35,595 bases of DNA from Candidatus Omnitrophota bacterium (GTDB lineage Bacteria; Omnitrophota; Gorgyraeia; Zapsychrales; Fredricksoniimonadaceae). Under the pieces are notes generated by a model. The model saw only the letters and a program-made list of their open reading frames with translations, did not search any database and was not told the origin of the DNA. Shown here one piece after another: positions 6,975 through 13,565 of this stretch (positions are counted from its first letter, which is position 1; the number at the start of each line of letters is the position of its first letter). The stretch lies in contig JADGCU010000015.1 of assembly GCA_015228785.1 (NCBI GenBank), positions 1-35,595 on the forward strand, given 5' to 3'. Position numbers and translations under genes: made by a program.

Positions 6975-9900
6975 TTAACTCTTACTTAGAATGGAAGAAA
7001 TATCCACTGGCATAATCTTCAGAATAATAGGCGAAAATCCATCTGTTTGAAGGGGATCCGCATTCTCCTGATTGCCTTTTACATTTAACCTGTTACCCTG
7101 TATCAACAAATCTAAATATTTGGGATTCAAATCAATACCGCCGACATCTTTGGTCATCGCAGGCTCCGACGACTTCCACTCTCCTGACCTAAAAGCATAC
7201 GGAACACCATTATGAACCCTCTGCTCAATCATCCTCGCCGCTACTTGCTCATCAGCTTTTGTTTTGATCGGTGAAAATTCACTCCGTGGAACAACGAGGT
7301 GTTCCGTGGTGAGCAGTCGTGACATATCCCCAATCAATCGTTCAACCTGAGCGGCGGCGCTCATAATAGGAATCTGGCGATCAGGATGAGTTAAATCTGT
7401 TCCCACCCGAACAGGTTTTACAGCAAAATTAAAACGCAGGGAAGAAACCTTCCTATTCACAAGCTCAAGCCTCTCCTGTTGACTGAGCAAGAAATATCGC
7501 TTCAAATTCTCCTGCAAACTTCCACCGCCAAGAAAGAATTCAAACAGGCCTTCCAGATTGAAATAGTTTTGATTAGTGCTGATATAGCGAATCTGCGAAA
7601 AATCAAAGCCCGCTGGAACATTATCCTTCTCAAGGATCTGCGGCTTAAACTGCCCATTACTCTCCAAATCAACATCAAATAAAAACCCGCCTTCCTGGCC
7701 CTCCTCTCTTTCAACCAATGTCGTCATCATTTGTTTCCCAGAACGATAAAAATGGCCCAGCCTCCGTTGATCAATTCGAAAACCCATGTCATCACCGTTA
7801 GGAATCACAAGGACCTTACACCCACGCTCGGCCAAATAAGCCAACCTGCCATTTAAAAACGGCTGAATCAACATTTCCAAATGCCCAACAGGTTTCGTGC
7901 TAATAACACCATCATCCGTTCTAAATGGATCGCCCACTGACCCATTCCTGGCCATGATCTCATCGACGGCCTTCTCCGGATCAAATCTGGTTCCCTGTGG
8001 GATCAACCCATATTCAATCTTCTGATTATGAACTTTCTCAAGTTCTTTAATGACCTTACCTGAAACCAAAATATCCTTTTTAGAAGGGTTAAAACGATAG
8101 ATCCCGTTCTGACTGTAAAAACTGACATCTCCCGAAGGAAGACCATAAAAACCGTTCTTCTTCCACAACTGTTCAATATGAGATACATTTTTATCATTTC
8201 CCATCACCAAGACGGGGATACCCCTTTGCTGGTCATCCCCCTGACATATCCCTTTAATATGCGCCACTCGGATTTCAGCAAGATTCGCCTCAACATCCTT
8301 TCCCTGAATGGTTAACCGCAAGGATGTACTATGAACTTTATCGCGTAATGTCGGATCATCTACTTCATACCCAACCAAGCGACCACCTTCCCCTCCAGCG
8401 CCAATAATAACCGCTATTTCACCTGCCTTTATTAATTCCTCCCCAACCCGATCATTTACCCTGTTCTCTTCCTTCTTTAATTGATCAATATGGGTCAAAC
8501 TCTCAGAAGGCGAACGTACTTGAGCGGCCTTTAACCGATTAGCCATTAGAGAAGGTTGTGCATCAATGATCTTCTGATGCTGATCAAACGAGACGGAAGG
8601 CGTGGCTGAAGGATCCTCAGTGCGATACGGAGGGAAATACTTTTTGATCGTCTCTAAAGCTTCTTCATTAGTTTTCTTATTTGTAAGACCAAAAAGCGTC
8701 TCTTCCTTGAGAACGCCATCCTTAAGCGACCTCACTCTCGGATTTGAAAATAAATATTTTATTTGCCCTGCCGAATACCCGCTTTCCAAAAGTTTCTGGC
8801 CAAATACTGTCGACGTATAAGGCTGTTCAAAAACAAGAACCTTTTCCTTTAAAGCCTCCAGCGGGCCCGCGCTCAAATGAACCAAATTCGTGACCCCTCT
8901 TAACCCCGGACGCTGTACCTCTGGTACCGGCAATATGCCTTCCACCGCATCCCGACGAAGAGTACCTACCGAATTTCGATCCGGCATATTCTCATCCCCC
9001 ACCAGGTCTTCCCTCAATGCCTTTAAAGAAACGCCTGAGCCGGCCTTAGGCCTGACCAATAGAGCAATCGTTCTTTTCTCTTCAGGACTATCAAAGGCCC
9101 TGAACAATCCCGGCACATAACCATTCACGATAATGACCGGCTGACCATTATTGACACGCGGATGAACAACAGGAAAAACACTGGTAGAAATAGCCACTTT
9201 ATTCACGCCATAAGGCAGCTTTTTTTCATACCAGTTGATCTTCTGAACCCCGCTCTCGACAATGATCATCTCCCGGGGAACGGCGATCTCGCCATTCTCC
9301 ACACTAACAGCTTCTTTCCCCTCAACAATGCGGACTTTTATGCCATAACGCCTTTCAAAATCCGGAATACTGATCGAAAATCTTGACGGCGCCCATAATT
9401 GATCCACGTCCTCATCGGTCAGTCCATATTTTGTGACCAACTCGATCGCTGGAATAATCGGAGTCTGGCTAAAAGGGGCCTTAAACGTTCTTTCAAAATC
9501 AGGAGTATCATAAATTTCCCTAATCCGTCTTATAGTCTTCGGATCTCTAATGCCGTTTTGATATCCCTTGTAAGCGTCGCTATAGAATTCCTGTAACTTA
9601 TCCGGATGTTTCTGATAATAGGCGCCTCCCAAGACCCGCAGGCCGGCCACATCGCATCCAAAACTCTCAATTCTGTCTAAAATCGCACCAATAAGAGGTA
9701 AATTAAACTTTCCATCAGACCCTACCGTTGTCGGAGGCTTGAGCAGCATCACAGCTTCCTGCTGTCCAGGATCAAGAAGCTCAGATGAATCCATGAGGAC
9801 AAGATCTTCACCATTCACAGTTTTCGAATCATCCGCCTCTTTAAGAAGACTCACAAGATCATCCCGACTCATGGAACGGGCTAAATTCTTAAGTCGCTTT

Positions 9901-12900
9901 GCTATAGAATTAAGCTGAGGGATATTGACGACCTTTATGTTAGTATCCACAAATTTCTTATACTGTTCCCTCGAAAGCCTTCCTTCGACCAACAAATATG
10001 CTGCGTGTGCGATCTCAGCAACACTTCCAATCTGAACCAATAGAGGATTTTGCGTTTCCGCTCCATTAACCGCCATTTGCATGATCTCGTTATCATCAAG
10101 CTCCGCGTCAAGTGCCAAGGATAAAAGGTACATAACAATAAGCCCTAGAATATTCTCACGATCAAAGTTCTCCGAACCTTCAGCATCCAGCTGTTGACCA
10201 ACCATGCTGGCCGCACGATTAAGTCCGCGCCAACGCGGATAATTCACCCTCCTAATAAGTTCTGCCATAGGGGCAAGCTTCTCTCCTGCGTTGAGAGGTG
10301 TGAGATCATAACGATTCAAAAGGTCTCCAAGTCCGATTTCTTTGAGCATCTCAACCCCATACGCTAACTCTGAGGAAATAAACTTGGATTTGACCCCCTC
10401 CGGTTCAAACATATACTCAGCTAATTCATCCCGCATAATCTCATACATATGGGCAATCCTGTCGCGATCCAACTCCTCGGTTCTGTGGACAATAGGAGGC
10501 AAATCTTTGGTATATTGTCCGCTGGCCCCTGTCTTACGATAAGGATAAAAATCATCCGCCTTTCCCAAAATCGTCGTTCCATACTGTGCCAAATTATTCC
10601 CCCACTTCGAACCAGGCATGGGAACCGCAACAGAAAGACCAATGTTGGTAGGATCGGTTTCTTGGACAAATTTAATCGTTTGTCTCACGTCCCATTCCGT
10701 CTCACCCGGAAGCCCAACCATAATAAATAGCCTCACCTCCTCAATGCCCGCCTCTTTGGCCATCTGGATCGCTTTCCGATTGGTAGCGATATCCGTTCCT
10801 TTGCCGATCACTGTATCCAATATCCGCTGAGAACCACTCTCAATACCAAAGGCTACACCAATGCACCCCGATCTCTTCATAGCGCGAAGTAATTCTGGAT
10901 TCATCGTATTTGTCCGAATAGAAGCCCGCCATCTAATATCCAGACCAGCATCCTGGATAGCCTTACAAAGATTCAACAGCCATTTTCGATCAGAGCTAAT
11001 ACCATCATCAATAAATGAAAAATTTCTCTGCCCTTGACGATAATAATTCCTGATCTCATCAACAATATTCTCCGCGCTTCTTTTTCTTAAGGACCTTCCA
11101 AAAACGCCCTTGGAACAGAAGGTACAGCCAAAAGGGCATCCTCTTGTTGTCAAAATAGGAACTGCTTTATTGGCAGGATTCACAATCCACACATCATAAC
11201 GCGCCATTTCCGCAGGCGGAATTGCAGGAAAAGGTAAAGCATCAATATCGGTCAGCACATCCGGATTTCCGGTATCAAATATTTCACCTGGATATTTAAT
11301 ACTGAATCCCTTAACAGCCAATATTTCGTCCTTTTCCCCTGACCGGTGAATAGCGTTAACAAATTGACAAAACGATCTTTCCCCTTCTTGACGGAAACTA
11401 ATATCAAAATTTGATTCCTTTAACATATTAAGATTATTAACAGCACTAGGGTGAGGGCCACCTGCCGCAATAATAACATTGGGGTCTAGTTCTCTGGCAA
11501 TATCTGCGGCCCGAAATGCATTGGAAGAAGATGCTGTCGTAAAAGATACCCCAACGATATCTGGCTGAAATTCTCTCATCACTTTCTTTAAATGAGCCTC
11601 TCTTTGCAACTTTGTTTTCTCAGGACCAACTCCCAGATCAAGAATCCTAACTTCCGCATCAGAATCTTTTTTGAGAGAAGATTTTAAATAATACAAACCC
11701 AAAGGGGGGTTAAAACTATTAAGACCCGTGATGTGCGACTGGACCAAAAGAACACGGGGCTTTCGACTTCCTTGAATAATAGAATCTGAAACTTTCGCAT
11801 AATTGGCCGGAGAGCCATGGATAACATCCGGCTCTTGAGCGCCTTCTCCCTTACGCACGGGACGCCACACATGAAGTCCTGGGCGTAGCTGTACAAATCC
11901 ATCATTCGAAGTGGGTTGCGCATTCATCGCAAACTCGTTAAGGATACGACTGACCTCATTTGCGGCCTCTACAGAGGTCATTCCCTCTCCATATTCTCGC
12001 CCGTTAAAACTGCCGCCCCTTGTATAACGCAATTCTTGCTTCAGCTTCTGTTGCTGCTGCGAATCAAGATCTTGTTCAAAACCTACAATAATGGATGTTT
12101 TCTTTTCCTGCGCATCCGTTGTAACAAAACAAGCTGCTAACGCTTCCGAAAAACTCAACCCCAAAATTAATCTTTCAATGATCTGACCAGACGGCGATAG
12201 CCTTACGCTCTCAGAAACAGAATAAATCGTATTGCCATCATCATCCGTGCTCTTGCGAATAACCCCGGCATCGCTTCTCTCAAGCTGTCTAATAACGGCC
12301 AACAACGCATCAGGCGCCGAAACATCAGCGGACAACGACTTAAACTCCGGCTCAGCGCCCAACCCGTTCTCATTCAAAGTCTCTCGCCATCCCTCCGTAC
12401 TTCTTAATGGAACATTAAATACCTGAGCAACTATTGTCTTTCCGGTAACCGCCTCACCGGCACCTATCATCATTGCTTTTTCTGAAACACGACGTCCCTT
12501 CACAATATCGGGATTATAATCATATCCTCCTGAAAAATACTTTCGGGGAACAACCTCTTTCGAATTATCATCGTACTCTTCTTTGATAAAATTAAAGACT
12601 CCTACCTTAACCGCCTTAAGATACTGCTGATAAATCTTTTCTTTTGCAGCCAAATCATCCGCCTTGATGCCATTAACCTTGTTTTTCTCAACATACGTTT
12701 TCCCTAATAATGTCTCACGCAAATTCCGCTTGAACCATGTAGCCAAAACCATGGAATAAAATATTTGCCTCAAATTGGCAAAGGACTCGCCTTCATTAAC
12801 CTCTTTTTCAATCTCAGGTAGAATTAAAGAACGCATGATCGATGAGGAAACATCGCTAATCTTCTCCGCGTCCCGAGCACCTTCCTGACCGTTCTCTTTC

Positions 12901-13565
12901 AAAGCAAGATAATCGCTCTCCAGCATAACTTTTAAATGTGTTGAAACAACAAACGCCACTTCCCCTCGAACAAAAATCTCAGCCTTACTAGGGACAATCC
13001 ACACCTTATGAAAGGTATCAACAGGGATTTCCGTGGTTCCGTAAAGCTTGCCAGCTTTTGCATAAAGTTCATTCCAAAACCTACGGCCCAAATCCCTCTC
13101 GGGATACATTAAAGAAGAAACAAGCTGTTTAAGAATATAATCCTGGGCAAGCAGGTCTTGCCCCATTGTTGTCTGACCAAACTTCTCCGCGACCATCCTG
13201 TCTTTTTCATAGGGCGAAAGATTAACCCAAAGATCATTCTCGGGAGTAGTGAGACTAGCAAGAAAATACTTAATGAGCCGGGCGGCATCATCCTTTAAGC
13301 CCGCAGGGTCCGATGTACCATCACCAGTGTCCAGAATAAAGTCCATCCGAAACGGATTCTTCGTATCAATCTTAATCCCTTTAAGAAGAAGCGGCGCAAC
13401 GCTCGGACTTAGTAACACCATGGTCCCAGGAACAGGCAGAACAACACTGCCTCCTGAAAAACTGCCAGCAGACGCAAGTTGGGCATAGGAAGACGGAACG
13501 CTTGAGCACACGAATGCCACAAGCGTCACGAAAGAAATAAGCCTATGAATTGTTTCTTTGAACAT
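6975..13565 (-). CDS. giant multidomain protein: signal peptide + conserved N-terminal module + B12-binding/radical SAM + NDK-like domain (split) + UDP-sugar pyrophosphorylase-like domain + C-terminal tail
   Basis: Single uninterrupted 2196-aa ORF; MFKETIHRLISFVTLVAFVCSSVPSSYAQ signal peptide; CPFGCTFC (codons 11115..11138); NDK-like QEAVMLLKP...NSVGTLRRD...NLVHLSAGP; UDPGP-like VIIGAGGEGGRLVG...PVLVMGNDKNVSHIEQL...KPVGHLEML...VLVIPNGDDMGFRID. Confidence 0.9.
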   Translation of the reverse strand: MFKETIHRLISFVTLVAFVCSSVPSSYAQLASAGSFSGGSVVLPVPGTMVLLSPSVAPLLLKGIKIDTKNPFRMDFILDTGDGTSDPAGLKDDAARLIKYFLASLTTPENDLWVNLSPYEKDRMVAEKFGQTTMGQDLLAQDYILKQLVSSLMYPERDLGRRFWNELYAKAGKLYGTTEIPVDTFHKVWIVPSKAEIFVRGEVAFVVSTHLKVMLESDYLALKENGQEGARDAEKISDVSSSIMRSLILPEIEKEVNEGESFANLRQIFYSMVLATWFKRNLRETLLGKTYVEKNKVNGIKADDLAAKEKIYQQYLKAVKVGVFNFIKEEYDDNSKEVVPRKYFSGGYDYNPDIVKGRRVSEKAMMIGAGEAVTGKTIVAQVFNVPLRSTEGWRETLNENGLGAEPEFKSLSADVSAPDALLAVIRQLERSDAGVIRKSTDDDGNTIYSVSESVRLSPSGQIIERLILGLSFSEALAACFVTTDAQEKKTSIIVGFEQDLDSQQQQKLKQELRYTRGGSFNGREYGEGMTSVEAANEVSRILNEFAMNAQPTSNDGFVQLRPGLHVWRPVRKGEGAQEPDVIHGSPANYAKVSDSIIQGSRKPRVLLVQSHITGLNSFNPPLGLYYLKSSLKKDSDAEVRILDLGVGPEKTKLQREAHLKKVMREFQPDIVGVSFTTASSSNAFRAADIARELDPNVIIAAGGPHPSAVNNLNMLKESNFDISFRQEGERSFCQFVNAIHRSGEKDEILAVKGFSIKYPGEIFDTGNPDVLTDIDALPFPAIPPAEMARYDVWIVNPANKAVPILTTRGCPFGCTFCSKGVFGRSLRKRSAENIVDEIRNYYRQGQRNFSFIDDGISSDRKWLLNLCKAIQDAGLDIRWRASIRTNTMNPELLRAMKRSGCIGVAFGIESGSQRILDTVIGKGTDIATNRKAIQMAKEAGIEEVRLFIMVGLPGETEWDVRQTIKFVQETDPTNIGLSVAVPMPGSKWGNNLAQYGTTILGKADDFYPYRKTGASGQYTKDLPPIVHRTEELDRDRIAHMYEIMRDELAEYMFEPEGVKSKFISSELAYGVEMLKEIGLGDLLNRYDLTPLNAGEKLAPMAELIRRVNYPRWRGLNRAASMVGQQLDAEGSENFDRENILGLIVMYLLSLALDAELDDNEIMQMAVNGAETQNPLLVQIGSVAEIAHAAYLLVEGRLSREQYKKFVDTNIKVVNIPQLNSIAKRLKNLARSMSRDDLVSLLKEADDSKTVNGEDLVLMDSSELLDPGQQEAVMLLKPPTTVGSDGKFNLPLIGAILDRIESFGCDVAGLRVLGGAYYQKHPDKLQEFYSDAYKGYQNGIRDPKTIRRIREIYDTPDFERTFKAPFSQTPIIPAIELVTKYGLTDEDVDQLWAPSRFSISIPDFERRYGIKVRIVEGKEAVSVENGEIAVPREMIIVESGVQKINWYEKKLPYGVNKVAISTSVFPVVHPRVNNGQPVIIVNGYVPGLFRAFDSPEEKRTIALLVRPKAGSGVSLKALREDLVGDENMPDRNSVGTLRRDAVEGILPVPEVQRPGLRGVTNLVHLSAGPLEALKEKVLVFEQPYTSTVFGQKLLESGYSAGQIKYLFSNPRVRSLKDGVLKEETLFGLTNKKTNEEALETIKKYFPPYRTEDPSATPSVSFDQHQKIIDAQPSLMANRLKAAQVRSPSESLTHIDQLKKEENRVNDRVGEELIKAGEIAVIIGAGGEGGRLVGYEVDDPTLRDKVHSTSLRLTIQGKDVEANLAEIRVAHIKGICQGDDQQRGIPVLVMGNDKNVSHIEQLWKKNGFYGLPSGDVSFYSQNGIYRFNPSKKDILVSGKVIKELEKVHNQKIEYGLIPQGTRFDPEKAVDEIMARNGSVGDPFRTDDGVISTKPVGHLEMLIQPFLNGRLAYLAERGCKVLVIPNGDDMGFRIDQRRLGHFYRSGKQMMTTLVEREEGQEGGFLFDVDLESNGQFKPQILEKDNVPAGFDFSQIRYISTNQNYFNLEGLFEFFLGGGSLQENLKRYFLLSQQERLELVNRKVSSLRFNFAVKPVRVGTDLTHPDRQIPIMSAAAQVERLIGDMSRLLTTEHLVVPRSEFSPIKTKADEQVAARMIEQRVHNGVPYAFRSGEWKSSEPAMTKDVGGIDLNPKYLDLLIQGNRLNVKGNQENADPLQTDGFSPIILKIMPVDISSILSKS

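Follow-up and report, generated by a model that had tools for sequence, protein, structure and literature searches.

Candidate polyproteins with a fixed leader, a fixed tail and variable enzyme cargo in Omnitrophota

Introduction

What becomes of a bacterial protein that combines a signal peptide, a B12-binding/radical SAM enzyme and two further enzyme-like blocks in one chain? The question is raised by an open reading frame (ORF) of Candidatus Omnitrophota at positions 6975-13565 of the window, i.e., of the whole 35,595-nucleotide stretch analysed here (contig JADGCU010000015.1). A first-pass annotation took the product for one secreted multi-enzyme polypeptide. This view is the less likely one, since leader, cargo and tail are set apart by short motifs, and since internal signal peptides begin at such motifs in other members of the family. 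We consider it probable that this gene and at least 21 others of its own genome encode polyproteins cut at a four-residue motif, ExAM.

In the proposed layout, a signal peptide and a fixed leader of ~300 residues come first and a fixed tail of ~55 residues comes last, with at least one variable cargo protein in between. The parts would be joined by a four-residue recognition site, which is [DE]-x-A-M within the order (ExAM in the own genome) and SSP[VIL] in more distant relatives. A putative protease of lineage-specific specificity would cut between A and M, most likely on the cytoplasmic side and while the chain is being translated at the membrane or shortly afterwards, thereby freeing separate proteins. 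Many of these would have Met as their first residue, as stand-alone proteins do, and some would carry a Sec, Tat or lipoprotein signal of their own. The window protein would yield the exported leader, a 182-residue unit, a 1,590-residue B12-radical SAM/NDK-like/UDPGP-like enzyme and the tail. Fixed ends, variable cargo and the enrichment, placement and lineage specificity of the motif can be read directly from the predicted proteins; cleavage, the position of the cut, the protease, the side of the membrane and a metabolic role are what we infer from them.

Results

A fixed leader and a fixed tail frame differing sequences

A search of the own genome with the window protein returns 21 other ORFs of 590 to >3,300 residues, which have the N-terminal ~350 residues in common at 42-60% identity. 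This region comprises the Sec signal and the leader, which ends in PRKYFSGG (KYFSGG), and beyond that point the sequence differs in all 22 members. A Sec-type N-terminus is present in 19 of the 22; in the other three, a contig end or the choice of start codon truncates the sequence. The leader occurs in 90 of 286 Omnitrophota genomes and in 35 of the 37 other genomes of the order, where it is multi-copy. Its AlphaFold (AF2) model is confident (predicted local distance difference test score 84, predicted template modelling score (pTM) 0.85). It has no match in PDB or in the viral BFVD at E <0.001 and no sequence relative in PDB, and a known fold was rejected.

The tail (GGID...G-F-x-PVI...FLG) is present in at least 15 of the 22 own-genome members and, across many genomes, ends 154 of 172 complete members. 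When the tail alone is searched against 96 genomes of the phylum, six have matches, namely the own genome and five others, each of which matches the leader strongly; the own genome contributes 23 matches, with the window tail at 2.7e-13. In AF2, the tail adopts no fold of its own (pTM 0.21). The counts for both ends bear out the earlier suggestion that the two ends are constant modules with varying enzymes between them; separate searches with each end and a tabulation of the cargo, as then proposed, give fixed ends around differing enzymes. The family is large and apparently has no previous description: searches of the open-licence literature yielded nothing relevant on bacterial polyproteins or on polyproteins in Omnitrophota/Omnitrophica.

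Several variants of the ends were observed. Distant leader-bearing families (L207-L211, in genomes G142 and G173) end in a GI(I/P)PS-ERIKEYL-type tail instead of GGID, and three tail-bearing ORFs (L117:11793, L058:11180 and L073:11917) are without a recognisable leader module. Two leader-bearing contigs, L119 and L098, are labelled Ca. Elulimicrobium and Bacteroidales and may be mislabelled, misbinned or products of transfer. Inside the leader module of one own-genome paralogue (L038, C98), in-frame palindromic repeats of the TCTGACGTCYRACGTC type lie at 10090-10186, 10414-10552 and 10958-11059 and resemble Rickettsia palindromic elements. Similar inserts are visible in L039 and L034, and L037 has another repeat type.

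A lineage-specific motif marks the junctions

In an unbiased dipeptide scan of the 22 own-genome members, AM leads the ordinary dipeptides, and Glu stands two positions earlier at 77 of 146 sites. In relatives from other genomes, DxAM takes the top place. With the tail excluded, ExAM occurs 76 times in the own genome (4.2 expected) and DxAM once (3.9 expected). In the DxAM genomes, which make up most relatives, DxAM is found 243 times (14.8 expected) and ExAM 10 times (16.9 expected). All expected counts assume independent residues. The tail was left out of these counts, and of those of signal-like N-termini below, because a conserved DPAM lies inside the tail of DxAM lineages. Further variants are DxSM in G222 (8 against 0.5 expected) and SSP in G136 (10 against 0.7), the latter also in a few other metagenome-assembled genomes (MAGs), while the junctions of the distant families read SSP[VIL] or SSA[VIL]. 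Genome G294, from the same genus as the own genome, has DxAM instead of ExAM. Comparing orthologous junctions for a change from E to D gave few cases because cargo is rarely common between genomes. Neither non-member ORFs nor the giant ORFs of the same genomes are enriched in the motif, and the idea that it is a general feature of large proteins was rejected.

The motif is also placed non-randomly. It lies within 60 residues after the leader in 17/22 own members (3.4 expected), 82/155 DxAM members (20.2) and 14/42 SSP members (5.2), and precedes the tail in 7/16 (1.6), 36/114 (10.6) and 9/26 (2.1), respectively. Motifs of the wrong lineage stay near expectation at both positions, except for the DxAM type after the leader in five of 42 SSP members (0.3 expected). 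None of 106 motifs falls inside a Pfam span, where 12.2 would be expected; this analysis, like that of Shine-Dalgarno (SD) sites below, still includes some tail motif sites. A position in linkers and lineage specificity are also what a docking motif would display, so that the chains might be modular fusions that stay whole in the envelope, with the motif as a binding or modification tag and no cutting. We regard this as quite improbable, since internal signal peptides and native termini follow directly after the motif.

Predicted cargo units can begin and end like complete proteins

In Pfam searches of ~125 members, the cargo includes enzymes of glycolysis, of the glyoxylate route and of glycogen metabolism, besides kinases and methyltransferases. 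Phosphoglucose isomerase (PGI), PGK, TIM, enolase, class II aldolase, PPDK and phosphoglucomutase are present, and so are adenylate kinase, isocitrate lyase and malate synthase. Glutamate and alanine dehydrogenases, UDPGP, starch synthase, GDE_C/GH77, GH116, histidine kinase, response regulator, PP2C, protein kinase, PRTase-CE, GDPD, NUDIX, DnaJ, methyltransferases and radical SAM enzymes are found as well. Most residues have no match. The genomes checked keep stand-alone housekeeping PGK, PGI and glycogen synthase, which makes the copies in the long chains extra ones.

If L057 (3,535 residues) is cut at DxA|M, its units start like complete proteins, among them a GDPD, five PRTase-CE copies in tandem whose alignments begin at residues 1-6, and two units with Sec signal peptides, and the series ends with the tail. 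In L066, of the SSP lineage, SSP|V sites coincide with the native start and end of a full E. coli-type PGI (E 3e-170 to 3nbu); the PGK of L194 begins just past DTA|M. Alignment of cargo to stand-alone ORFs in the sampled loci gave one clean junction match (L099) and otherwise mostly tail matches. Signal-like N-termini, including lipobox and Tat types, follow 27 of 340 motif Mets compared to 103 of 4,558 other Mets (odds ratio 3.7, P 1.6e-7). Sec, Tat and lipoprotein signals work only at an N-terminus on the cytoplasmic side, which argues that the predicted cutting takes place there.

The same signals bear on the view that the long multi-enzyme protein is secreted intact, e.g., into or onto the cell of a host or prey. 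Leader and tail would then serve in secretion or delivery, and ExAM would be no more than a linker. Such secretion would fit the Sec-type signal peptides of the own-genome members, fixed ends that suggest a targeting system, the extra PGI and PGK copies in the cargo and the symbiotic or predatory life inferred for Omnitrophota (PMC10066038). It is nevertheless unlikely, because Tat and lipobox signals within the chain could not function in a protein that has already been exported, and because linkers need no four-residue code that switches between E, D and SSP from lineage to lineage across all paralogues.

That units begin with Met and resemble natural N-termini, and that the Ala codon before this Met is biased to GCG, would also suit internal translation starts in an operon fused without stop codons. 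SD-like sites precede 44-68% of gene starts, compared to 6% of motif Mets in DxAM lineages and 9% of other internal Mets, i.e., the motif Mets of these lineages show no enrichment. Moreover, it is the protein sequence that is conserved (D or E, x, then A or S), both synonymous codons serving for Asp or Glu, and SSP lineages have V, I or L rather than Met at this position. Internal starts are therefore very improbable and were rejected.

Polyprotein cleavage remains the reading that we prefer, and several points weigh against it. SD-like bases lie upstream of 15 of 77 own-genome motif Mets, possibly because the Glu codons supply GAG/GAA, and GCG encodes the motif Ala in 60% of own-genome cases against 35% at other AM pairs (44% against 27% in the other genomes). 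In some members, the motif is missing from one or both ends, and flexible linkers with a favoured sequence would have several of the same features. No protease was identified for the motif sites, and none was found in the chain. The leader, considered as a candidate, was rejected: among 101 sequences it has no invariant Cys, His or Ser, hence no invariant nucleophile, and so is not an obvious protease. Cutting on the cytoplasmic side would leave export of the leader and the role of the tail unexplained. Finally, members were sampled by similarity to the window leader, MAGs are incomplete, and all evidence, including that for cleavage at the motif, is sequence based.

The window protein

The window protein possesses all elements of the family, namely Sec signal and leader, the GGID...PVI tail, and ExAM both after the leader (residues 362-365) and before the tail (2134-2137), with a further site at 544-547. 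Its features are as follows.

6975..13565, minus strand: whole ORF, 2,196 residues, proposed polyprotein (ORF and coding signal)
13482..13565, minus strand: Sec-type signal peptide, residues 1-28, SYA|Q (sequence)
12525..13436, minus strand: conserved leader module, residues 44-347, ends PRKYFSGG (homology and AF2)
12471..12482, minus strand: junction motif 1, EKA|M, residues 362-365 (motif scan)
11928..12473, minus strand: predicted unit 2, residues 365-546, 182 residues (between motifs 1 and 2; no family match)
11925..11936, minus strand: junction motif 2, EFA|M, residues 544-547 (motif scan)
7158..11927, minus strand: predicted unit 3, residues 547-2136, 1,590 residues, B12-radical SAM, NDK-like and UDPGP-like (no internal junction motif)
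11364..11711, minus strand: B12-binding domain, residues 619-734 (Pfam PF02310, E 7.7e-13)
10665..11153, minus strand: radical SAM domain, residues 805-967 (Pfam PF04055, E 3.8e-26)
8820..9764, minus strand: tentative NDK-like block, residues 1268-1582 (hhalign E 1.4e-4, 53%)
7245..8498, minus strand: UDPGP-like block, residues ~1690-2107 (PDB phmmer 1.6e-6; Pfam 0.0026)
7155..7166, minus strand: junction motif 3, EPA|M, residues 2134-2137 (motif scan)
6978..7157, minus strand: conserved C-terminal tail unit, residues 2137-2196, GGIDLNP...GFSPIILKIMP (recurrence in family)

The first-pass annotation had described one uninterrupted ORF with an N-terminal signal peptide, and both descriptions hold: on the minus strand, 2,196 codons run from an ATG without a single internal stop, and the signal peptide is of the Sec type. 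It had also considered a chimera of separate genes joined in assembly. In each of twelve 183-codon blocks, codon bias agrees with that of adjacent genes, and it does so in one frame only; this uniformity gives no sign of an internal chimera. The middle fusion of radical SAM, NDK-like and UDPGP-like blocks finds no confirmation in a second genome among 83 searched from the order. The gene is surrounded by ordinary metabolic genes (alanine dehydrogenase/transhydrogenase, fumarase, leucyl aminopeptidase, citrate synthase, SurE, UbiE and ThiC).

The three enzyme blocks proposed earlier fare differently. The B12-binding/radical SAM assignment is solid, as judged from strong Pfam matches to both domains and the intact cysteine motif CPFGCTFC (CxxxCxxC) at residues 810-817, the features of the B12-binding radical SAM superfamily. 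The block resembles BchE/HpnJ-type enzymes in these features and differs from them by its fusion to the NDK-like and UDPGP-like blocks; its BchE-like NCBIfam matches all score far under the equivalog cut-offs.

For the UDPGP-like block, the assignment is good. The Pfam PF01704 score of 17 bits stays under the gathering cut-off of 22, but phmmer links the block to the UTP-glucose-1-phosphate uridylyltransferase 2i5k, and GxGG, PxGH, NxDxxG and VVPRSxFxPxK motifs are in place. Compared with eukaryote-type UDP-glucose pyrophosphorylase, the motifs align and the block is divergent. The NDK (nucleoside diphosphate kinase) assignment is only plausible: the block has no match in Pfam (PF00334) or PDB, while its pairing with one distant relative reaches a probability of 53% in hhalign, and it carries a catalytic-type motif NLVHxS....EA, with NLVHLS at residues 1560-1565 (NxxHxS). 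The own genome also encodes a normal NDK.

No junction motif lies between any of these blocks, so that the three may remain together as one unit after the predicted cutting. A nucleoside triphosphate-supplying, UTP-using sugar activation coupled to a B12-radical SAM step is possible. Stand-alone homologues of the NDK or UDPGP block are absent from the 83 order genomes except for one weak NDK-like match, and the uniqueness of the fusion makes any function speculative.

Discussion

Bacteria usually use operons for multi-gene products, and polyproteins are mainly viral. Dozens of probable polyproteins per genome would, if true, amount to a novel way of expressing genes. The concerted change of the junction code in all paralogues of a lineage would offer a natural experiment on how a protease and its substrates co-evolve. 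The family also provides a concrete starting point for studying this uncultured phylum, in which many large proteins are unexplained, and a rule for annotating them, namely to cut at [DE]xA|M or SSP|V. For the order as a whole, we tentatively raise the possibility, in itself doubtful, of tens of polyprotein genes per genome with an exported leader and tail common to all, a protease code that holds genome-wide and has switched between sister lineages, and a second set of enzymes for central carbon metabolism that would work elsewhere, be it in the envelope, an internal compartment or a partner cell.

Long ORFs in the same phylum include the giant ORFs, which are poorly understood (PMC10066038). 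The four that we tested (6,784-22,400 residues; L233-L242, in G071, G273, G294 and G155) carry glycogen-type domains (GDE_C or GT5-like) and lack leader, tail and motif. The window ORF, with 6.6 kb, is shorter than the >20 kb by which giant ORFs are defined.

Polymorphic toxins combine a conserved N-terminal part with swapped downstream parts. The Omnitrophota family is alike in both respects and adds a fixed tail, several cargo units per chain and mostly metabolic enzymes in place of toxin domains. Viral polyproteins, e.g., of the flavivirus type, are translated from one ORF that gives several mature proteins, with a short junction motif and internal signal sequences. The one-ORF layout, a short junction motif and internal signal peptides recur here, and several mature proteins are predicted. 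In contrast to the viral systems, no protease was found in the Omnitrophota chain and the motif is lineage-specific; the genes are cellular, form tens of paralogues per genome and surround an enzyme cargo with a fixed leader and a fixed tail.

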